DNA of 20,441 nucleotides from Chloroflexota bacterium (GTDB taxonomy: Bacteria; Chloroflexota; UBA11872), in assembly GCA_026707185.1 (NCBI GenBank), contig JAPOXI010000129.1:1-20441 (forward strand). Direction: 5' to 3'. Shown piece after piece: positions 1,103 to 18,422 of the stretch. The notes below the pieces were generated by a model. It saw only the letters and a program-made list of their open reading frames with translations. It was not told where the DNA came from and made no database searches. The position numbers and the translations under genes are program-made. The first letter of the stretch is position 1, and the number at the start of each line of letters is the position of its first letter.

Positions 1103-2869
1103 GTGAGATTTCTCCAGCAGCTGTCACGCTTCACCCGCCCCGAGCGCGGCATGCTCATCGGCACCGTCGCGGCTGGCTTGCTCTTCACGGCCAGCGGGCT
1201 GGTCCCACCGTTGTTCGTCCGCCAGATCTTGATCTGGCACGCCGAAGGCACCACCGCCGAGAACGCCATGCTGGTCGTCGTGGCGGCCCTGGTGGGCGCC
1301 TACCTGGTGCGCGCCGCCGCTCGTTATACCTACGGTCTGCTCTCCCACTGGGCGGCCTACAACGTGCAGCAGGCCATGATGGTCAACCTCTACCGCCACA
1401 TCCAGACGCTGCCCCACCGCTTCTTCACCGACCGGCGCGTGGGCTCGTTGGTGTCGCGTTCCGTGGGCGACGTGGAAACGGTCGAGGACTTCGTCGCCCA
1501 CGGCATCCCCGAAACCGTCATTGCCATTGCCTTGCCGGCCGCCATGCTGATTGCGCTGTTCATCATCAACTGGCAATTGGCCCTGCTGGCGCTCTTGCCG
1601 ATTCCCATCATTCTCGTGGCCGGTCGGTTCCTGTTTCCGCACATCCGAAGCTCCTGGCGTGTGGTGCGCGAATCCGTGGCCAAGGTCACCGCCACGGTCA
1701 CCGAGGGCATCGCCGGCTACGCCGTCATCAAGGCCTTCGGCCGCGAGCGGGAGCAGCTGCGAATCGTCCAGCGCGACTGGCAGCGCTACCGCGACGACAT
1801 CCAAAAGGCACAATTCTTCTCCCTGGTTCCCGCCGGAATGATCGAACTCCTCGCCGGCCTCGGCCTCATCCTCGTCGTGGCCGTCGGCGGCGACCTCACC
1901 CTGCGCGGCATCGTGCCGGTGGCCGACCTGTTCGTCTTCGTCGTCTACCTGGGCTTGATCTACCAACCCGTCATCCAGCTGGCCGCCATCAGCGAGAACA
2001 TCCAAAAGGCCATGGCCAGCACCGAGCGGGTATTCGAGCTGCTGGCCATCCAAACCGACCTGCGCGACAAGCCGAACGCCACCGCCCCTTCAGCGCCCGA
2101 GTGGTCGGTCGAATTCGACCATGTCGACTTCCGCTACGAACCGGAGGAACCAGTCCTGCAAGGCGTGTCCTTCAACGCCGCGCCCGGCGAACTCATCGCC
2201 CTGGTCGGCCCCACCGGCGTCGGCAAGTCCACCTGCGCGCACTTGGTCCCACGGTTTTACGACGTCGATAGCGGCGCGGTGCGGGTCGCCGGCGTTGACG
2301 TCCGAGACCTGCCGATGGCCTGGCTGCGCTCCAACATCTCGTTGGTTCTGCAGGAGGTCTTCCTGTTTGCCGGCACCATCCGCGACAACATCGCCTTCGG
2401 CCGTCCCGGCGCTACTGAGCAGGAGATCCTGGAGGCCGCCCGCGCCGCCAATGTCGACGAATTCGCCGAGCGCCTCCCCAACGGCTACGACTCCCGCGTC
2501 GGCGAGCGCGGCGTGCGCCTCTCCGGCGGCCAGCAGCAGCGCATCTCCATTGCCCGGGCCGTCCTCAAGGACGCGCCGATTCTCATCCTGGACGAAGCCA
2601 CTTCAGCGGTCGATGCCGAAACCGAAGCTCTCATCCAGGAAGCCCTCGACCGCCTCACCCTCCGCCGCACCACCCTCGTCATCGCCCACCGCCTGGCCAC
2701 CGTCCGCCGCGCCGACCGCATCATTGTGTTGCGCAATGGCGGGGTCGCCGCCGCCGGCTCCCACGACGAGCTCGTGGCCCACGGCGGCTGGTACGCCGAC
2801 ATGGTCCGCCGCCAGCAACTCAGCGCCCGCTGGCGCCTCGAAAGGGCCGCCGAAGTCCCGCTGACCTAG
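1103..2869 (+). CDS. ABC exporter half-transporter (TMD-NBD, MsbA/multidrug type)
   Basis: This 588-aa protein has the standard single-chain half-exporter layout. A six-helix transmembrane domain (about residues 10-305) includes the coupling-type segment FGREREQ. A nucleotide-binding domain (about 330-575) follows. Visible motifs are Walker A GPTGVGKST (369-377), Q-loop LQEVFLF, signature LSGGQ (473-477), Walker B ILILDEAT (493-500, catalytic E498) and H-loop His529. All catalytic residues are intact. It should act as a homodimer in the cytoplasmic membrane, or as a heterodimer with a partner not present here. The substrate (drug, lipid or peptide) cannot be read from the sequence. The GTG start at 1103 gives a normal N-terminus; ATG at 1151 would cut into the first helix. 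It is alone on this strand here. Confidence 0.95.
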   Translation: MRFLQQLSRFTRPERGMLIGTVAAGLLFTASGLVPPLFVRQILIWHAEGTTAENAMLVVVAALVGAYLVRAAARYTYGLLSHWAAYNVQQAMMVNLYRHIQTLPHRFFTDRRVGSLVSRSVGDVETVEDFVAHGIPETVIAIALPAAMLIALFIINWQLALLALLPIPIILVAGRFLFPHIRSSWRVVRESVAKVTATVTEGIAGYAVIKAFGREREQLRIVQRDWQRYRDDIQKAQFFSLVPAGMIELLAGLGLILVVAVGGDLTLRGIVPVADLFVFVVYLGLIYQPVIQLAAISENIQKAMASTERVFELLAIQTDLRDKPNATAPSAPEWSVEFDHVDFRYEPEEPVLQGVSFNAAPGELIALVGPTGVGKSTCAHLVPRFYDVDSGAVRVAGVDVRDLPMAWLRSNISLVLQEVFLFAGTIRDNIAFGRPGATEQEILEAARAANVDEFAERLPNGYDSRVGERGVRLSGGQQQRISIARAVLKDAPILILDEATSAVDAETEALIQEALDRLTLRRTTLVIAHRLATVRRADRIIVLRNGGVAAAGSHDELVAHGGWYADMVRRQQLSARWRLERAAEVPLT

Positions 2870-2929
2870 GGCCCAACGGCAAACCGTCCGCCGTCTGCCG
2901 ACCGACAGCGACTCAGCGGACGCGACGAA

Positions 2930-2970
2930 TTACTCAATGCGTTGAGTAAGTTTCCTCAGTCAATTGAGTA
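2930..2970. repeat. TTGAGTA inverted/direct repeat cluster
   Basis: A perfect 8-base inverted repeat (TTACTCAA at 2930-2937, TTGAGTAA at 2942-2949, loop TGCG) is followed by a third TTGAGTA copy at 2964-2970. The third copy overlaps the palindrome TCAATTGA (2960-2967). This arrangement resembles a multi-site operator, for example for an antitoxin. No T-run follows, so a terminator for the ABC gene is less likely. No gene starts immediately beside it now, so it may be a leftover regulatory region. Confidence 0.5.
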
Positions 2971-3101
2971 GAGCGGCAGCGGATCATCCCGGCGGAGCAT
3001 CCCTACGAAGACGAATCTCCAGAAGCAAGCCTCAGGGCCATCATCCTCATCGCTGAACGGAATCTGGCGACGCGAATCGCAACGATTCGGAATCTCGAGA
3101 T

Positions 3102-3293
3102 TCACGCCCGGCGGCATGCGTGGCAAACGTGTGACTCCCAGGATCCGGCCGGAACTACGACGAAGCACTTTCGGCGCTCAATGCGCCGCGGTCCGTCCTC
3201 TTCAGCAAGCCGCAGTAGTTCAGGTATCCGCGCCCTGGCCTCCGCGGCGCTTCGTAGACACTCACCGGATGCACAAATCAGCATCTGAATCAT
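3102..3293 (-). pseudogene. Phd/YefM-like antitoxin relic
   Basis: The 63-codon minus-strand frame contains AAEARARIPELLRLAEEDGP, RRIERRK and then VVVPAGSWE. This follows the order of conserved elements in Phd/YefM antitoxins: a DNA-binding N-terminal helix with E-A-R and E-L-L, a Gly-Pro turn, an R-R-x-K strand, and V-V-V followed by W-E. The expected short start (M-x-x-V-S-x-x-E-A-R) is replaced by an unusual cysteine-containing leader. The frame ends soon after the W-E, without the usual C-terminal toxin-binding tail and with no toxin gene behind it. I read it as a decayed antitoxin. The match is from family knowledge by eye only, so a chance resemblance is possible. Confidence 0.35.
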
Positions 3294-3366
3294 CCGAAGT
3301 TACTTGGCCTTCGACAATACTGACTCTTCCCATTTGACAGTAGAAAAGGACTGCGGTCGAGCAACT

Positions 3367-3389
3367 AAGACAGCTCTGTTGAGTGTCTT
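3367..3389. repeat. bulged hairpin downstream of the reverse transcriptase
   Basis: The left arm AAGACAGCTC (3367-3376) pairs with GAGTGTCTT (3381-3389) with one bulged G and the loop TGTT, giving 9 base pairs. It lies about 130 nt past the reverse transcriptase stop on that gene's strand. There is no U-tract on either side, so it is not a typical intrinsic terminator. It may belong to a structured 3' untranslated region or an associated non-coding RNA. Confidence 0.4.
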
Positions 3390-3519
3390 GCGGCGGAGAG
3401 GCCGAATCACCACTAATCGATTCCAACTGCTATTGACGACTCTTCCATCTGACTTCCCGCTGCATGCCCGCCGGCAAATCGCTGAGCACCTCGACAACAC
3501 AAGCTACCCACAAATCTGC

Positions 3520-5142
3520 CTAAAACGGAAGCCGCCCCGCGGCACTATGACTATCCTGACAAAGCTCATCAATTGATCTCACGAAAGAAACGCCAGCATC
3601 ACCAAGAACGTCAAGTCCAGAAGCAGCAAGATAGCAGTCGTATTTCGTGTCTATTAGTTTCCTCAATTCATAGACCAACACCCAATACGAATCCAAGCCA
3701 TATTCGTCGTCGATTGGTATGCCATTTACGAACTCAACAACCTTGTCGCAGTGCTGTTTCAGGGCAATCAGCATCGCCATTGCCATACAATCGCGAGTCT
3801 TGATTATTCCCTGTGCCATTGAGTCCGGTATCTCATGACCACACATGCCCATTAGGAACAGTGCCCAACACATTGCGTCAGAGCGTCTGTATGACATCTG
3901 GCGAGCCATGAATTCGTCGAAGTTGTCGGCTGGCACGAGGTGTCGATACTCAGAGTGACTCCAGCAGAACTTGCAAAGCACGGGCAGTACCGACGGGTTC
4001 TCGAATGCTAGTGCAAATAGAGCGCGAACGTATAACTTCGAAGTCTCCTCAACCACTTTTCCTGAAAGAGATCGGGCTGCATACTTGGCGATGCTTTCAT
4101 CAGGCAATGTGCGCTGCATGTTGATTGCATAGTCAAGGTACTGGGACACCTTCCTAAAGTTCGGCTCGTCCTCCACAGGTAACATGCTTGCCAAGGCAAT
4201 CTTCCAATTCGGATCATGCGGAATCGGCAACTCTTCAACTGACACCTTGTTCACGTTCAGTTCCAGAAGGTACTCTCTCAACTCATTCTCAATGCTCACC
4301 AGAAAGCGTTCCGCTTCATCACGACTCTTACAGTAGCATCGGTAGTCATCGATATATCGAACAAAGTTGAAACCACCGGCACAAAGTGCCTCGTCGACCT
4401 TAAAAAGTATGACTTCTGACAGAACATTCGAGGTGGCGGGACCGATTGGAACACCGTGAGTTTCTCCTCTCTTCAAGTCTCGTTGGTGTTTATCGATCTC
4501 GTTAAACCACAATGACGGCGACCGGTGAGACTTGGCATGCTCATGCCCAACCAATGCCCAAGGTATCGAGTGCGTGTAAATTGAGGGAAAAAACGCCGAA
4601 ATATCGGCAGTTGCCAGATACCGATTGTTGGTCGATAGATCTAACTCCAGCATCCGGTCGTCCGAAGCTGGCCCGCTTCCCATTACCATGATTCTATCGT
4701 CCACAGTCTCTACATCTTCTAGTTCATAACCCTCATAGACAATTATTCTGGAATCCTCGTATCGTGTCGGCTTTATTCGACTCTCTCTGCTGTCGCATAT
4801 ATGCCGTATGTTGCTCCAGTGTACGGCAATTGCCTTACAAAGCTGTGCATACGGAAGTGGATGCGGAATGTGCTCGATTCTAGTTACCTTGTTATGTCTA
4901 GTCATGCGCATCTCTACTTGATCATAACCTCCCTTTCGTGACTGTCCGTTCTCATTGATCATTTGATCCGCTACGACCGGAGTAATCTCTTCTGAATAGA
5001 TGACTGGTGGCAGCTCATCATGGTACTTTGATATCATTGGGAAATAGTTATACCTCAGAAGTGCATTGTAAACATAGTCCTCGTCCATGAGCCTGTGGTT
5101 CCTTGCCCTCTCTTTTACTCGATTTCGTATATTACTCGGCAT
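3520..5142 (-). CDS. UG/Abi-type reverse transcriptase, probable antiphage (DRT) protein
   Basis: This 540-aa protein has a clear reverse transcriptase core. Motif A is TADISAFFPSIYTHSIPWAL, with catalytic D180. GVPIGPATSNVLSE (230-243) is the next motif. YIDD (263-266) carries the two other catalytic aspartates. A lysine-bearing LNVNKVSVEELP (295-306) follows. The core is followed by about 210 residues of mostly helical sequence (330-540) instead of a maturase or endonuclease domain. That plan, and the IYTHSIPWAL and SDAMCWALFL blocks, match the 'unknown group'/Abi reverse transcriptases. Several members of that class are antiphage (AbiA, AbiK, Abi-P2, DRT systems). The exact subgroup cannot be fixed by eye; DRT3b- or DRT4-like are possible. 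The gene is markedly AT-richer than its neighbours, has its own promoter and stands alone, suggesting horizontal transfer. It appears full length. Confidence 0.9.
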   Translation of the reverse strand: MPSNIRNRVKERARNHRLMDEDYVYNALLRYNYFPMISKYHDELPPVIYSEEITPVVADQMINENGQSRKGGYDQVEMRMTRHNKVTRIEHIPHPLPYAQLCKAIAVHWSNIRHICDSRESRIKPTRYEDSRIIVYEGYELEDVETVDDRIMVMGSGPASDDRMLELDLSTNNRYLATADISAFFPSIYTHSIPWALVGHEHAKSHRSPSLWFNEIDKHQRDLKRGETHGVPIGPATSNVLSEVILFKVDEALCAGGFNFVRYIDDYRCYCKSRDEAERFLVSIENELREYLLELNVNKVSVEELPIPHDPNWKIALASMLPVEDEPNFRKVSQYLDYAINMQRTLPDESIAKYAARSLSGKVVEETSKLYVRALFALAFENPSVLPVLCKFCWSHSEYRHLVPADNFDEFMARQMSYRRSDAMCWALFLMGMCGHEIPDSMAQGIIKTRDCMAMAMLIALKQHCDKVVEFVNGIPIDDEYGLDSYWVLVYELRKLIDTKYDCYLAASGLDVLGDAGVSFVRSIDELCQDSHSAAGRLPF

Positions 5143-5403
5143 TTGTGACAGTCAGGCCTCTGAGCGTCATGTGTGATGTCATTATACACACCGTGGAATG
5201 AGGAGGCAGGAAATGTTAGTGATGTGGCTGGCAGGCTCAGGTTGAGATATTAAGTCCGTACTGATCTCGATAAGTGACGCTTGCGTCTGCTAAGATGTTG
5301 CGAGCGAAAGTGATAGATATGCATGCTGGACGGGGCCCTCGTCGAATATCGTCAGCTTATTCACTTGTGATGTCGCGACGGCGCCTAGCGTGATTCTGCG
5401 ATC
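5143..5403. other. 260-base non-coding stretch upstream of the reverse transcriptase
   Basis: There is no convincing gene between the reverse transcriptase start and the broken HEPN gene. The stretch contains the TATAAT promoter and two small hairpins: GACGC/GCGTC around 5277-5288, and GACGGGGCC..CTCGTC at 5329-5343. Composition is near 50% G+C, as in the reverse transcriptase gene. Because some DRT systems use a non-coding RNA beside the enzyme, this is the first place to look for one; no such RNA is demonstrable from sequence alone. Confidence 0.45.
5171..5191 (-). promoter_or_regulatory. promoter of the reverse transcriptase, -10 box inside an inverted repeat
   Basis: On the minus strand a perfect TATAAT lies at 5186-5181, about 38 nt before the ATG at 5142, implying a short leader of roughly 30 nt. 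No good -35 hexamer is seen 16-18 nt upstream. The -10 box sits between GTGTG (5171-5175) and CACAC (5187-5191), a possible operator. A ribosome binding site is weak: AGAGG is present but about 15 nt or more from the ATG. Confidence 0.5.
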
Positions 5404-5634
5404 TCATCCGGAGTGAATGTTCCAGCAATGAGACTTCTGACGAGTCTTGGTCCTGACTCTCTCAAGATTGTTCCGGAAGCAGGCGTAGGTGATGATCTCA
5501 AACTGGCGCTCAACCGCGGCACGCCGCATGGCGTCGCGGCTGTAGTCGCCGAATGTCTTGCTGTCCGTGAATTCTTGCAATCGGCCAATGGCAAGCTGGA
5601 TATCGTGCAGATACTTCCGCGTCTCACGCCGCAT
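5404..5634 (-). pseudogene. HEPN (HepT-like) toxin, truncated/frameshifted
   Basis: From the ATG at 5634 the frame reads MRRETRKYLHDIQLAIGRLQ, then a FxDY segment and RRAAVERQFEII (residues 37-48). This is the typical first half of HepT-type HEPN ribonucleases that pair with MNT antitoxins. It overlaps the MNT gene by 11 nt, the normal coupled arrangement. After FEIITYA the match is lost and the frame stops at residue 76. The next frame carries a further HepT-like piece (LRESGPRLVRSLIAG) before its own stop near 5376, suggesting a frameshift around 5460. In neither frame is the catalytic R-x4-6-H motif present; family members are normally about 110-140 aa. The toxin is therefore very likely inactive. 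Confidence 0.65.
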
Positions 5635-5932
5635 AGACCAGCGTTCGGCTCTCATCAACGGCTTCCCGGAAGTAAGGGTTCTTAATGGCCGAGTCGATGA
5701 CCAGATCTACGGGCCGTCCGAACAATTTCTCTAGAGATTCCAGCAAGCCGAAGTACGCGTCGGCATAGGCGCCCATGGCCTCCGGTTGGAACTCCACGAC
5801 AAAGTCAAGGTCGCTGTCCTCGTTGAGGTGACTGCGGACACTGGCCGAGCCGAACAGATCGAGCCGCTGGACTCGATAATGCCGGCAGAGTTTCCCGACC
5901 TCTTCCGTCTGCTCCGCTACCAGTGGAATCAC
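5624..5932 (-). CDS. MNT-type nucleotidyltransferase, antitoxin of an MNT-HEPN pair
   Basis: This 102-aa protein is a minimal nucleotidyltransferase domain. It has LFGSASVR (residues 27-33), then SDLDFVVEF with the metal-binding D41 and D43, and PVDLVID with the third acidic residue D76. These are the features of MntA/MNT antitoxins, some of which add AMP to and inactivate the partner HEPN toxin. The catalytic residues look intact. The start is GTG at 5932, the only start before an upstream stop, with GAGG about 9 nt before it. It sits 10 nt after the oxidoreductase gene, so it is probably carried on that operon's transcript. Its toxin partner downstream is broken. Confidence 0.85.
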   Translation of the reverse strand: MIPLVAEQTEEVGKLCRHYRVQRLDLFGSASVRSHLNEDSDLDFVVEFQPEAMGAYADAYFGLLESLEKLFGRPVDLVIDSAIKNPYFREAVDESRTLVYAA

Positions 5933-5942
5933 CCGCCGAACC

Positions 5943-7094
5943 TCATGGTTGCTGAATGCTCACCCACGCCCGCGTCCGCTCCGACTCCCGCGCCGCGTCC
6001 ACCGCCCGCGCCACCGCCAGCCCGTCGTGAAAGCTCGCCAGCCGGCTGGGCTCTCCCGCGGCACTCGCCCGCAATCCCGGAATCACAATCTCCCGGAACA
6101 TCGCCGTGTTCTGCGCCCGCGGCGACTCGTGCACCCGCACCGGCACGTCGACCACCTCGGGGTCGACCCCGCGCACCAGGCGCACCTGGCCGGCCTTCCG
6201 GTTGCCGCCCGAGTAGCTCACAAACGCCGACGCCCGCGACCCGTGCACCTGTACGTCGGGCGTGGGTCCCGGCCGCGTAAAGGTCGTCTGCCCCGCCGTA
6301 AATGTGAACAGCGCGCCGGACGCCATCTCCCCGTGGATCGTCCCGAAGTCGCTCGCGGTCACTTGCGCCATTGGTGTTCCCGCAGCCACCCCCTGCGGGT
6401 TCTCAGCCGACCAGCGGTTGGCGTCGACTCGCGAAATGTCACCCATGTCCGGCCGCTCCGGGACCACGATCGGTAGGTGCCCCATCACGGCCGTGATCTC
6501 GCTGCCCGTCAGATACCGCGCCAGGTCCAGCAGGTGCACGCCCAGCAGGCCGATCGACCCGGCCGGGCACTCTTCCTCCGTCATCCACCACTGCACCGGC
6601 TCGTGCAGGGCGCGCGGCTGCCAGATGCGCCCGAACATCGCCTGCACCTCGCCAATCTCGCCCTCGTCGATCAGGCGTCGCACCGTCTGCATCGGTTCCG
6701 CGAACCGCATGTAGTGCCCCAGGCCGTGCCCCAGCTCCGAGCTCTCCGCCGCCGCCACCATCTCGGCGCACTGCTCGGCCGTATTAGCCAGCGGCTTCTC
6801 GCACAACACGTGCTTGCCCGACTCCAGCGCGGCAATGGCTACCGGATGGTGCATGGCGTTGCTGGTGACAATCGCCACCACATCCAGGTCGTCCCGCGCC
6901 ACCAGGTCGCGCCAGTCCGTATGGGTATCCGGCATCCCGTAGGCTGCCGCCGTCTCCGCCAGCGGCCCCGGCCGTCGCGCCGCAATCGCGCGCAATTCCA
7001 GGTCCGGCAGATCGACCGCCGGATTCAGATACGTGGGGGCAAAGAGCCCCGTGGCGCCAACCACACCAACTCGCAGAATGTTCGATTCACTCAT
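5943..7094 (-). CDS. Gfo/Idh/MocA family NAD(P)-dependent oxidoreductase
   Basis: This 383-aa protein has an N-terminal Rossmann fold with the dinucleotide motif GVVGATG (residues 10-16) and the family signature EKPLA (99-103) with catalytic Lys100. The C-terminal alpha/beta domain contains GVHLLDLARYL (185-195), where His187 and Asp190 occupy the usual active-site positions. Family members oxidise or reduce sugars, inositols and related compounds; the substrate cannot be told. No signal peptide is seen. It starts 12 nt after pgsA stops, so it is probably co-transcribed with rodZ-like and pgsA. A link to envelope sugar or lipid-headgroup metabolism is only an inference. Confidence 0.9.
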   Translation of the reverse strand: MSESNILRVGVVGATGLFAPTYLNPAVDLPDLELRAIAARRPGPLAETAAAYGMPDTHTDWRDLVARDDLDVVAIVTSNAMHHPVAIAALESGKHVLCEKPLANTAEQCAEMVAAAESSELGHGLGHYMRFAEPMQTVRRLIDEGEIGEVQAMFGRIWQPRALHEPVQWWMTEEECPAGSIGLLGVHLLDLARYLTGSEITAVMGHLPIVVPERPDMGDISRVDANRWSAENPQGVAAGTPMAQVTASDFGTIHGEMASGALFTFTAGQTTFTRPGPTPDVQVHGSRASAFVSYSGGNRKAGQVRLVRGVDPEVVDVPVRVHESPRAQNTAMFREIVIPGLRASAAGEPSRLASFHDGLAVARAVDAARESERTRAWVSIQQP

Positions 7095-14492: not shown

Positions 14493-16289
14493 CTATTGCA
14501 TACGCCGCCGGATCCCGCGGATCACCGTCCGGTGCACACCAAGCGCGGCAAGTCCAATGGCGCCGACCGCCGCTCCGATCGGAGCAACGACGATTCCGAT
14601 AACGATGGCCGCATTGGCGACCCACTGTCCGATCCGGGTCAACACCTCGACCGAGTTGTCAACCGTCGCACCGGGGTCCCACTGGTCGACCTCGACCGCG
14701 TCCTCTTCTTCAACGGCATCCTCAGGCTCCGGAATCGCCGTCAGGAACGTCACGCTGCGGTTGTCCACGGTTGCGCGGTCGCGTTCCGAGGCCTCGATCG
14801 AGGTCGTAAACCACTGCCGCGCCGCCGCCGATTCCAGGCGCGCCAGGTAGCTCACCGTTCCGCTGGCGCCGGGTGCCAGTTCGGGGAACTCCCACACGAT
14901 CGCGTGCTGATCCGCGTCATATTGACCGCCCCTGGTCGCTCGGATGAACTCGATGCCTGAGGGCAACCCTTCAACCAGCCGCACGTCCCGTGCATCCGCG
15001 TTACCCCGGTTGGCATAGCCCACCGAGTAGCTCGACTCGCGACCCACCTGCACCTCCACGTCGCGTTCCTTGTCCAGGCCGAGGTCGACGAAGAACGGCA
15101 GTCGGACCTCGTCGTGGTCCAGGTCGGCGCCGCGGACGTCGCTCGCCGTGCTCGCCTTCGCCCGCACTTCCATTGTCCGGCCGTCACCCTCCAGGCGCGC
15201 GGTCGTCCGCAGCTCCAGCGACTGGCCCGGCGCCATCCGGTCGATGGTCCAGACCACGCTGTGCGTCGACTCTTCGTACTGCCCGGGCTTCGTCGCGAAC
15301 TGGAACACCAGGTCCGGGTCCAGCTGATCGCGCAGGACGACCTCGCGCAGCTCCACCGTCCCGTCGTTAATCACCGTGATCGGAAACTCCACCGACTCAT
15401 GCATGGCGTACCGGTCCGGCGCGCGCCGCTCCACGCGAAGGTCCGGCACCGGATGCAGGTTCACCGTGATGGTGGACAGCGCCGCCTGGTCGGCCAGCAC
15501 GTTGAGCTGCCCCTGGAACATCTCGATCTGCTCACGAACCTTGGCCACTTCGCGTTGCACCTCCAGCGTGCTCTGCACCGTTCGGGAGGTCGCCATGATC
15601 TCCAGCAGCTGCGTCTCCGTGGCCTGCGCGTTGCGCATGCGCGACTCGATGTCGGTGAACGCCGCCGTCACGTCCCGCCCGGTCACGTCCTCGGCCACCA
15701 CCTCGCGACCGTGCGACCGAATCCGCTCGATCGTCTCGTCAAAGCGCTCGGCCGGAACCCGCAACGTGATCGAGCTGATCCGGTACGGCTCGTTGCCGCC
15801 GATCTCGGTGTGCGACACAAACGCCCCGGCGATCGAAGCAACCATGCCCCGTATCGCCTTCACGCTCATCGGCACGTCGGCCACCACGATCCCGATACTG
15901 CCCGTGCGAATGACCTTCCGCCCCGAGTCGGGAACCTGCGTCTCGGACGCCAGCAGGGAGCCCGTGGACGCTTGGCTCTGCGCCGCGGCCGGGGGAGCAG
16001 CCTTCTGAAGGACTGAGCCGACGGTCCCTGGATCCGTCGTCGCCACCGCCTCGAACTGAACCGCCTGCGTCACCACCTTCTCCACCTGCTGCGTGACGAT
16101 CCGCTCGACCGGAACCTCCTTGATAACGACGCGCTCTGGAGGCGGAGCTACGGCCATTGCGGCCGGGGCCGGTGGAGGCGCCGCCTGCACCGCGTAGGAC
16201 GGGCTATCCGACGAACTGTCCCCGCAAGACGCAACCAGCATCGCCGCCAGCGGAATCGCCAACATCAGCGTTCGTCTCGGTCCTCGCAT
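14493..16289 (-). CDS. lipoprotein with DUF4349 and two DUF11-like domains, C-terminal membrane helix
   Basis: This 598-aa protein starts with a basic n-region, a hydrophobic stretch and a lipobox LVASC with Cys22, so it is probably lipid-anchored. A low-complexity Pro/Ala region and a repeated V-P-V-E-R-I-V-type segment (54-74) follow. The DUF4349 domain (about 123-280) shows RKVIRTGSIGIVV, LRVPAERFDETI, GRDVTAAFTDIESRMRN and LEVQREVAKVREQIEMFQGQL. Two DUF11-like beta domains (about 295-385 and 405-515) include LREVVLRDQLDPDLVF and ARDVRLVEGLPSGIEFI. After an acidic linker comes a transmembrane helix (about 557-583) and a basic tail. The start has GGAGG 7 nt upstream. DUF4349 has no firmly known role. 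It is the paralogue of the gene at 16505-18244. Confidence 0.88.
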   Translation of the reverse strand: MRGPRRTLMLAIPLAAMLVASCGDSSSDSPSYAVQAAPPPAPAAMAVAPPPERVVIKEVPVERIVTQQVEKVVTQAVQFEAVATTDPGTVGSVLQKAAPPAAAQSQASTGSLLASETQVPDSGRKVIRTGSIGIVVADVPMSVKAIRGMVASIAGAFVSHTEIGGNEPYRISSITLRVPAERFDETIERIRSHGREVVAEDVTGRDVTAAFTDIESRMRNAQATETQLLEIMATSRTVQSTLEVQREVAKVREQIEMFQGQLNVLADQAALSTITVNLHPVPDLRVERRAPDRYAMHESVEFPITVINDGTVELREVVLRDQLDPDLVFQFATKPGQYEESTHSVVWTIDRMAPGQSLELRTTARLEGDGRTMEVRAKASTASDVRGADLDHDEVRLPFFVDLGLDKERDVEVQVGRESSYSVGYANRGNADARDVRLVEGLPSGIEFIRATRGGQYDADQHAIVWEFPELAPGASGTVSYLARLESAAARQWFTTSIEASERDRATVDNRSVTFLTAIPEPEDAVEEEDAVEVDQWDPGATVDNSVEVLTRIGQWVANAAIVIGIVVAPIGAAVGAIGLAALGVHRTVIRGIRRRMQ

Positions 16290-16375
16290 CTCTCGCCTCC
16301 CTATCCAATCGATCTATGTCTGCCGAGCGCTCACGTCCGAGGCCTGAATCCCCGCGTGCGCAACTCGGTTCTTCG

Positions 16376-16400
16376 GTACGTCCTCAAAGAGATGTACGTC
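16376..16400. repeat. direct repeat GTACGTC, 18-base period
   Basis: GTACGTC occurs at 16376-16382 and again at 16394-16400, in the 215-base gap between the two DUF4349 genes and about 90-110 nt upstream of the second one. The 18-base period places both copies near the same face of the helix, as in a tandem regulator site. This is only suggestive. The same gap also has a weak hairpin GGCCG/CGGCC at 16456-16471. Confidence 0.25.
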
Positions 16401-16504
16401 GCGAGACCCGGATTCGTTCCCTGGGTTCTGAACTTTTTCGGTGAGTTCCAAAGACGGCCGATCAACCGGCCATCCCCGCCGTCAGCTGCGCGTCAGCGCC
16501 CTGG

Positions 16505-18244
16505 TCACCCTCGCCGGCGCTTGATCGCCCTGATCCCCCGCCAGGCCAGCACCCCAACCACCGCAAACGGCCCCGCCACGATCACCAGCACGATCGCCGC
16601 ATTGGCCAGGAACCGCAGGACGTCCAGCAGCAGGCCCACCGCGTCCCGCGCCGTCGACCCTGGCCCGAACACGTCCCGCCCCGCCACGTCTTCCGGCAAG
16701 GCCGTCAGGAACGTCACCACCCGGTTGTCCACGTCGGCCCGGTCCTCGTCAGCCGACTCGATCCGCGTCTCGGTCTGAAACCGCCCTTCGCTCCGGTCCA
16801 CCCGCGCCTCGTAGAACACGCCGTGCCCCGAGTCGGGCGATAGCCGCGGGAACTCCCACACCACCGTCCGCGTGCCCTCGTCGTAGCGACCGCCGCCCTC
16901 CGCCCGCACGAACGTCATGCCCTCCGGCAGGCGCTCGGTCAGGCGAACTTCCCGCGCGTCGCCGTTTCCGTGGTTGTTGAAATTGAGGAAGTACGTCACG
17001 TCCCGCCCCACCGGCACCGACGCCTCGCCCTCCTTGAACACGCTCAGGTCCACAAAGAACGGCAGCGTCGCCTCCGCCCGGTCCTCCGCCGGCTCGCGCA
17101 CGACGCCTCCGGCCGTAATCGTCGCGCTCACCTCCATCGGCTCTCCGTCGCCCTCCAGCCGCACCCGCGACCACACGTCCTGCGCCGAGTTTGCGTCCAG
17201 CCGGTCAAACTCCCACACCACGGAATGCGAGGCCGCCTCATACACCCCCTGCGACGACGCCCACTCGAACACCATCCCGGGCGCCAGCTGATCCCGCACC
17301 ATCACGTCCCGCAGATCCACCGTCCCGTGGTTCGCAATCGTGATCGGCAACTCCGTGCTGCCGTGCATCGCGTAACCCTCGGGTGAGAACCGCTCGATCC
17401 GCAGGTCCGGTGCCGGATGCAGCTGCACCGTGATCGTCGCCAGGTCCGTCTGGTTCGCCAGCAGGTTCAGCTGCCCCTGCAACACCTCGATGCGCGAGCG
17501 CACCTCCAGCAACTCCCGCTGCACCTCCAGCGTGTCGCTCACCGTGCGCGCCGTCGCCAGGATGTCCAGCAGTTGCTGCTCGGTCGCCTGCGCCGTCCGC
17601 AGCCGCGCCTCCAGGTCGGTGAACTCCGCCGTCACGTCGCGCCCGCCCACGCCCTCGAACACCACCTCGCTGCCCAACGCGCGCACCAGCCGTCGCGCCT
17701 CGTCGAACCGTTCCACCGGCACCCGCAAAATGACCGTGCTGATCGACCGCGGATCGTCGTCCCGCACGTCCGCCGAATCCACAAATGCCTCCGGAATCCC
17801 ATCCACCAGCGCCTGCAACTGCCGCACCGCCTCGTCCACATCGCCCACCACGATCCCCACCGTCGCGTCCCGAATCACCCGCCGCGCCGGCGCCGCCTGC
17901 TCTGACTCAACGACCACCTGCTTCATAGCCGCCGCCTCGACCGGGACCTCCCTCACCACAACCTGCTGCGCCTGTGCGGGAGGCGCCGTCGGCGCCTCGG
18001 CAACTCGCACCGCCGCCCGCTCCGCCGCCATCCCCATCGCCGTGGCCGAATCTCGCGACATGCGCTCGCTTTCGACGGTCACCGCCATCGCCGCCGGCGC
18101 CTCCGGGGCCATCGCGGCCGCCGGAGCGGCCATCGACCGCTCAAACGACTCCTCATCCCCGCCAAACGGAAACTCCCCGCACGCCGCCAGAGCCAGCGCG
18201 CCAACCACCAGAGCCGCCGCCAACACTCGGAATCGCTTCGGCAT
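16505..18244 (-). CDS. lipoprotein with DUF4349 and two DUF11-like domains, paralogue
   Basis: This 579-aa protein has the same architecture as its downstream neighbour. The lipobox is ALAAC (Cys22), followed by an Ala/Pro/Met-rich spacer and the R-E-V-P-V-E element near 98-103. DUF4349 spans about 121-275 (RRVIRDATVGIVV, LRVPVERFDEARR, GRDVTAEFTDLEARLRT, VQRELLEVRSRIEVLQGQL). Two DUF11-like modules follow (VDLRDVMVRDQLAPGMVF; AREVRLTERLPEGMTFV). The C-terminal membrane helix lies around 545-563 with an IKRRRG tail. The start is ATG 18244 because AGGAG is 6 nt upstream; the preceding GTG at 18247 is too close to that site. The 215-nt gap to the paralogue means they may have separate promoters. 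Confidence 0.87.
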   Translation of the reverse strand: MPKRFRVLAAALVVGALALAACGEFPFGGDEESFERSMAAPAAAMAPEAPAAMAVTVESERMSRDSATAMGMAAERAAVRVAEAPTAPPAQAQQVVVREVPVEAAAMKQVVVESEQAAPARRVIRDATVGIVVGDVDEAVRQLQALVDGIPEAFVDSADVRDDDPRSISTVILRVPVERFDEARRLVRALGSEVVFEGVGGRDVTAEFTDLEARLRTAQATEQQLLDILATARTVSDTLEVQRELLEVRSRIEVLQGQLNLLANQTDLATITVQLHPAPDLRIERFSPEGYAMHGSTELPITIANHGTVDLRDVMVRDQLAPGMVFEWASSQGVYEAASHSVVWEFDRLDANSAQDVWSRVRLEGDGEPMEVSATITAGGVVREPAEDRAEATLPFFVDLSVFKEGEASVPVGRDVTYFLNFNNHGNGDAREVRLTERLPEGMTFVRAEGGGRYDEGTRTVVWEFPRLSPDSGHGVFYEARVDRSEGRFQTETRIESADEDRADVDNRVVTFLTALPEDVAGRDVFGPGSTARDAVGLLLDVLRFLANAAIVLVIVAGPFAVVGVLAWRGIRAIKRRRG

Positions 18245-18422
18245 CACGCGCTCCTACTGACGTCGATGTGCGGAAAGCGGCCTCCGGGCGCTGCCCTCGG
18301 CCTCTTCCTCTTCAAGACTAACGGCGCCCCCGCAAGTTCGTATCGAGACCATCGAAACCGCTCAAGTCGGCGCCACACAAATAGCTACGCCACCCAATCG
18401 CAATTCGTTCCCTCGCCCGCGA

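Follow-up and report, generated by a model that had tools for sequence, protein, structure and literature searches.

The stretch of DNA analysed here (the window) comprises 20,441 nucleotides of contig JAPOXI010000129.1 from an uncultured Chloroflexota bacterium. On its minus strand, between genes for an ABC transporter and a Gfo/Idh/MocA oxidoreductase, it carries a gene for a stand-alone reverse transcriptase (RT), in a segment of low G+C content flanked by toxin-antitoxin genes (Table 1). An earlier reading of the sequence alone (the original prediction) took this gene for a UG/Abi-type RT and a candidate antiphage system in acquired DNA. Here we report that the gene is, with high confidence, a horizontally acquired drt4, that is a member of UG15 among the class 1 UG/Abi RTs, in an insertion hotspot for toxin-antitoxin and defence genes of a Chloroflexota lineage.

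The reverse transcriptase and its family

In the list of open reading frames (ORFs) the drt4 frame has 540 codons and zero internal stops; M1 (position 5142) and M19 (5088) are both possible starts. RVT_1 at residues 167-302 (47.4 bits, cut-off 29.6) is the sole Pfam domain above cut-off in the protein, and the Pfam scan revealed no maturase, endonuclease or integrase domain. Residue conservation was assessed in an alignment of 122 rows: the window protein, 119 proteins from the database (P0002-P0120) and two homologues encoded by related genomes. D180, the aspartate of motif A, is identical in 121 of these proteins and the YIDD aspartates D265 and D266 in all 122. Three tyrosines are likewise invariant (122/122): Y189 just after motif A, Y354 in the helical domain and Y504 close to the C-terminus. 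The active site of drt4 is intact. The AlphaFold model, made from a 36-row alignment (mean predicted local distance difference test score 83.9, predicted template modelling score 0.86), has an RT-like domain at about residues 20-310 and then helices only, from 312 to about 530; prediction is poor for residues 1-16. The intact RT core (D180, YIDD), the helical C-terminal part and the lack of maturase, endonuclease and integrase parts are thus as originally predicted. In the set of 36 aligned proteins, P0002 alone has a clear equivalent of the basic 18-residue N-terminal extension; the extension of P0087 is unlike it. A 522-residue form of the identical protein is found on three contigs in the protein database, which disfavours a chimera within one assembly.

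The NCBIfam Drt4 model (NF041749) gives the protein 477.1 bits against a curated cut-off of 450, and Drt4 is also its best PADLOC family (497.5 bits; Drt6, 300 bits). In a structure comparison the DRT4 fold ranks first. The two-domain fold is common to the window protein and solved DRT4 (PDB 9vdo, 9vdv, 9l9s, 21ou) over 479 residues at 31-34% identity; the catalytic aspartates are alike, and a tyrosine in the chain of solved DRT4 aligns with Y504. The window protein differs from solved DRT4 in its N-terminal extension and its long-stemmed pairing with P0002. AbiK and Abi-P2 also consist of an RT-like and a helical domain. Membership in a different class 1 subgroup (DRT6 or UG30), with the mode of action of that group, is highly improbable, since Drt4 leads by about 200 bits in PADLOC and by 7 Z units in the fold comparison, and the curated Drt4 cut-off is passed; DRT6 (PDB 9wy8) is 22% identical to the window protein. 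An RT of a group II intron, a retron or a diversity-generating retroelement (DGR) has the RT core in common with it, and the group II intron model TIGR04416 (47.3 bits, cut-off 300) and NF038233 (36.4 bits, cut-off 235), the sole retron model matching at E <= 1, do respond, far below their cut-offs. DGR and group II folds lie far below DRT4 in the structure ranking, which speaks only for the families included. With Drt4 scoring best in PADLOC and above its own cut-off in NCBIfam, an origin in one of these three groups is hardly conceivable. The original prediction named no numbered subgroup and allowed for a divergent or new one; profiles and fold instead assign the gene to UG15/DRT4. It is a rather distant new DRT4 member, not a new system, and the original call of a stand-alone RT of UG/Abi type is supported.

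Relatives and distribution

A protein search retrieved 814 proteins at E <= 0.001, and the best 120 of them were listed. Among these P0002 is the nearest relative (78% identity over the full length), the others reaching at most 50%; its frame is also intact and of the same length. Two trees, a quick one of 61 rows and a careful one of 21 rows, were built from Drt4-like rows only, curated members of other UG groups being left out. In both, the window protein and P0002 form a fully supported, long-stemmed pair (stem of 0.89 changes per column in the 21-row tree) among other database Drt4 rows, and the homologues from related genomes branch outside. Grouping the pair with the homologues of G019 and G014 was rejected by the approximately unbiased test (p 0.0012), a p-value weakened by the choice of this grouping after viewing the quick tree.

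We compared 19 genomes of one Chloroflexota family, that of G001 (G001-G019; L labels denote loci and P labels database proteins). RT homologues at E <= 1e-20 occur in five of the 19, with 29-39% identity, and PADLOC ranked Drt4 first for those of G019, G014, G004 and G006. At 1e-40, four of the 41 genomes in the class of G001 have a match, all four within this family. At E 0.001 the NCBIfam Drt4 model matched four of eight syntenic genomes and two of 14 control genomes, none over the cut-off. This patchy occurrence resembles that of a mobile defence gene, not that of a fixed core gene. Viral contigs searched with RT patterns gave no match. Plasmid records gave 204 matches, all below 60% identity, four of them with query coverage of 80% or more (best 34.5%), and phage records six partial matches of 21-34% coverage; a close plasmid or phage carrier of drt4 was not found in the collections searched. 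A literature search for reverse transcriptases and defence systems in Chloroflexi of sponges, a possible source of the related genomes to judge by their names, found nothing.

Three homologues elsewhere in the family have genes of known or candidate PADLOC defence families nearby, as neighbour scans of the G019, G004 and G006 loci revealed (G014, G009 and other relatives were left out). The G019 homologue is immediately preceded by HsdS and immediately followed by PDC-M02A/B, and HEC-01A and HsdM stand farther up. The G004 homologue has a PD-T4-4_A-like ATPase at a distance of about 1.2 kb. Near the G006 homologue, about 0.35 kb away, is a DrmMI/type IIG-like protein; a second neighbour scanned there had no match.

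The acquired segment

Lower G+C than in the neighbouring DNA had been part of the original prediction, and the segment indeed has 48.5% G+C, compared with 67.5% elsewhere on the contig; there the lowest value in 156 overlapping 1-kb windows (those touching 2900-5900 excluded) is 63.7%. G+C at third codon positions is 52 in drt4 versus 71-88 in six other genes of the window. The right edge is sharp, at about 5490/5491: the window, L001 and L005 align through hepT to about 5491 and then diverge abruptly. The left edge lies at about 3250-3300. From about 3300 to 5490 there is no match to any locus of the same site, and only pieces of about 50-65 bp within the RT match RT loci elsewhere. Absence from 13 comparable sites, divergent G+C and the sharp right edge bear out acquisition of the segment. 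No repeats bounding both ends were found, only short, mostly imperfect pairs; the window has no tRNA gene, and no other ORF of the segment stood out as a recombinase in the ORF list, short ORFs being scanned only in part.

Besides drt4 the segment brought non-coding DNA, 348 bp upstream and about 220 bp downstream of the gene, as might be expected if the enzyme copied a nearby non-coding RNA, as DRT2, DRT3a, DRT9 or DRT10, instead of working template-free. We consider this very unlikely. Rfam gave zero matches in 2860-6000 at E up to 1, a result that covers described RNAs only; the frame of the G019 homologue begins at the end of hsdS, with no space there for an upstream RNA; and DRT4 is reported as single-gene and template-independent (PMC13213688, PMC13314766).

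A hotspot between the ABC transporter and Gfo/Idh genes

Synteny with the window extends to either side of the segment in eight loci from Chloroflexota metagenome-assembled genomes (query protein identity 69-91%), and nucleotide matches were found as well. Those MnmG relatives that bear organism names among the 120 listed are Chloroflexi/Chloroflexota, one being Ktedonobacterales. The ABC transporter gene adjoins the Gfo/Idh gene on one contig in 13 of the 19 family genomes (loci L001-L008 and L018-L022); G009-G014, whose Gfo/Idh gene gave short matches only, were left out of the site comparison. The site, 3073 bp in the window (2870-5942), varies widely in length and content among these genomes (Table 1). 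Toxin-antitoxin, restriction-like, AAA or TIR-like cargo is present in 12 of the 13 and an RT in none; the RT homologues of G004, G006 and G019 are found on a different contig or at a distance of hundreds of kilobases. Eight cargo proteins were scanned by Pfam, one of these also by PADLOC, and the rest were named by likeness. Within this Chloroflexota family the gap between the two genes is a hotspot of cargo turnover. The order in the window (phd remnant, drt4, hepT 5' part, mntA) equals that in G008 (vapC-phd, cargo, hepT, mntA).

Table 1. Features of the window and cargo of the same site in related genomes. For genomes, the distance between the ABC transporter and Gfo/Idh genes is given in bp; it was taken from match ends (too long by between 0 and about 40 bp in most), for G019 and G015 from ORFs.
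Feature	Position in window, or genome (distance)	Strand	Basis or content
ABC transporter, conserved left flank of hotspot	1103..2869	+	Pfam, synteny
phd/yefM antitoxin pseudogene	3033..3293	-	matches to hotspot loci
Acquired segment, 48.5% G+C	3300..5490	.	no match at 13 comparable sites; composition
drt4 (540-aa DRT4/UG15 reverse transcriptase)	3520..5142	-	ORF, profiles, fold, alignment
hepT 5' part (HEPN toxin)	5491..5658	-	alignment to L001, L005; HepT frame of L005, L020
mntA-like nucleotidyltransferase antitoxin, complete open frame	5624..5932	-	Pfam NTP_transf_2 40 bits; PADLOC PDC-S09 111 bits
Gfo/Idh/MocA oxidoreductase, conserved right flank of hotspot	5943..7094	-	Pfam, synteny
Cargo MntA-HepT	G001 (743; hepT early stop), G005 (743), G018 (761)
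Cargo PIN (VapC) + Phd	G002 (968), G003 (969), G006 (969)
Cargo nucleotidyltransferase + substrate-binding partner	G004 (764)
Cargo AAA_14-DUF4143	G007 (1492), G017 (1544)
Composite island	G016 (4061)		PIN, phd-like DNA, AAA_14-DUF4143, nucleotidyltransferase + NTase_sub_bind, HepT
Composite island	G008 (4773)		PIN, Phd, 239-aa protein, 328-aa protein, nucleotidyltransferase pair, HepT, MntA
Cargo N6/N4 methylase-HNH fusion	G019 (~1600)
No ORF of at least 75 aa	G015 (~200)

The neighbouring toxin-antitoxin genes

Toxin-antitoxin remnants had been predicted on both flanks of the RT gene. This applies to the hepT fragment and the phd/yefM remnant; mntA is a complete open frame. The window hepT keeps 56 of 121 codons, ending RQFEII, and covers positions 1-45 of 120 in the Pfam HepT-like profile. 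A complete HepT frame of 121 residues is present in L005 and L020. The missing downstream part includes RNLLIH, the catalytic RX4-6H motif of such HEPN ribonucleases. Judged from its sequence, the HepT toxin should be dead, with its antitoxin gene still open. The phd/yefM remnant consists of an N-terminal part (3102-3293) and a C-terminal part in another frame and stays below the Pfam cut-off; at about 3041-3246 it is matched piecewise, in two frames, by L002, L003, L006, L008 and L018. In L002 phd is followed by vapC, which is absent from the window.

Is the gene a working DRT4?

Several observations weigh against the reading as an acquired drt4 that acts like its relatives. Solved DRT4 is only 31-34% identical to the window protein, and the G004 and G006 homologues score 405 bits each, under the NCBIfam Drt4 cut-off, so the edge of the family near these genomes is not sharp. 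Both hepT and phd in the island are broken, which is compatible with weak selection on the locus, and a simple promoter scan found no site on the drt4 strand between the gene and 5490. The cut hepT and frame-broken phd on either side, together with the lack of a promoter-like site right upstream, would fit a DRT4 gene that no longer works and is decaying among them. This we regard as unlikely, because 540 codons are free of stops, the active-site aspartates and all three family-invariant tyrosines are kept, and P0002 is intact at equal length. An acquired, probably working drt4 remains our interpretation, and DRT4 membership in a variable locus supports the predicted role as a probable antiphage gene.

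A perfect TATAAT was seen by eye at 5181-5186 on the minus strand, 38 bp upstream of the drt4 ATG and within a short TGTG...CACA palindrome; the promoter scan did not list it because it has no -35-like hexamer.

Proposed mode of action

The window enzyme shares its fold and active site with characterised DRT4 and gives no hint of a partner; most likely it also acts in the same way. For oligomer, priming, product, trigger and outcome we draw on its relatives. By homology the protein would assemble into a hexamer, and one of its tyrosines would serve as the primer of DNA synthesis, as is described for the untemplated synthesis by AbiK and Abi-P2 (PMC9508834). Nucleotides added without a nucleic-acid template would then give single-stranded DNA of random sequence. 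In infected cells a phage factor (the DNA-binding protein ORF55 in the published DRT4 case) would allow this DNA to build up, and the build-up would halt the cell. Complete conservation and a C-terminal place make Y504 a candidate priming tyrosine; DRT3b is reported to prime at Y666, again far along the chain to judge by the number (PMC13174585, a preprint). Y73, considered by analogy to AbiK and Abi-P2, was dropped, as it is F in 22, C in one and H in one of the 122 proteins. There is a slight chance that the lineage of the window protein and P0002, with its own basic N-terminal extension, differs from ORF55-dependent DRT4 in DNA product or phage trigger, fitted to Chloroflexota phages.

With this gene DRT4 is recorded in a lineage of uncultured Chloroflexota, and its arrival can be traced: 13 relatives show the site without drt4, the right edge is located to a few bases, and what lay beyond that edge of the HEPN toxin gene has been lost. 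The hotspot with its mapped insertion is the more useful part of the finding, and the site between the ABC transporter and Gfo/Idh genes is a ready place to seek more defence genes in this lineage. As a distant intact DRT4, the window protein helps to tell essential residues, such as Y504.

Further observations

Three of the hotspot loci contain additional ORFs of interest. In L008 a 328-residue protein (15610-16596) has no Pfam match and a PADLOC TIR-effector match at residues 201-304 (6.8e-11), and is possibly an unrecognised defence effector; a 239-residue protein nearby (16917-17636) also lacks a Pfam match. The hotspot of G019 holds a single 463-residue protein (L021:474-1865) in which an N6/N4 DNA methylase is fused to an HNH nuclease; it looks like a one-protein restriction-modification enzyme. 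The nucleotidyltransferase antitoxin-like ORF L018:2792-3220, whose C-terminus resembles a Phd tail by eye and whose DNA matches the phd remnant of the window, reads like a fusion or recombination joint of two toxin-antitoxin systems.

Elsewhere in the window, the neighbouring genes 14493-16289 and 16505-18247 (598 and 580 residues) have lipoprotein-like N-termini, are alike by eye and apparently represent a tandem duplication. The Polyketide_cyc2 gene (SRPBCC-type, 101-550) at the left end of the contig has a second match of 68-76% identity in each of L001-L007, which suggests a small local family of such genes.
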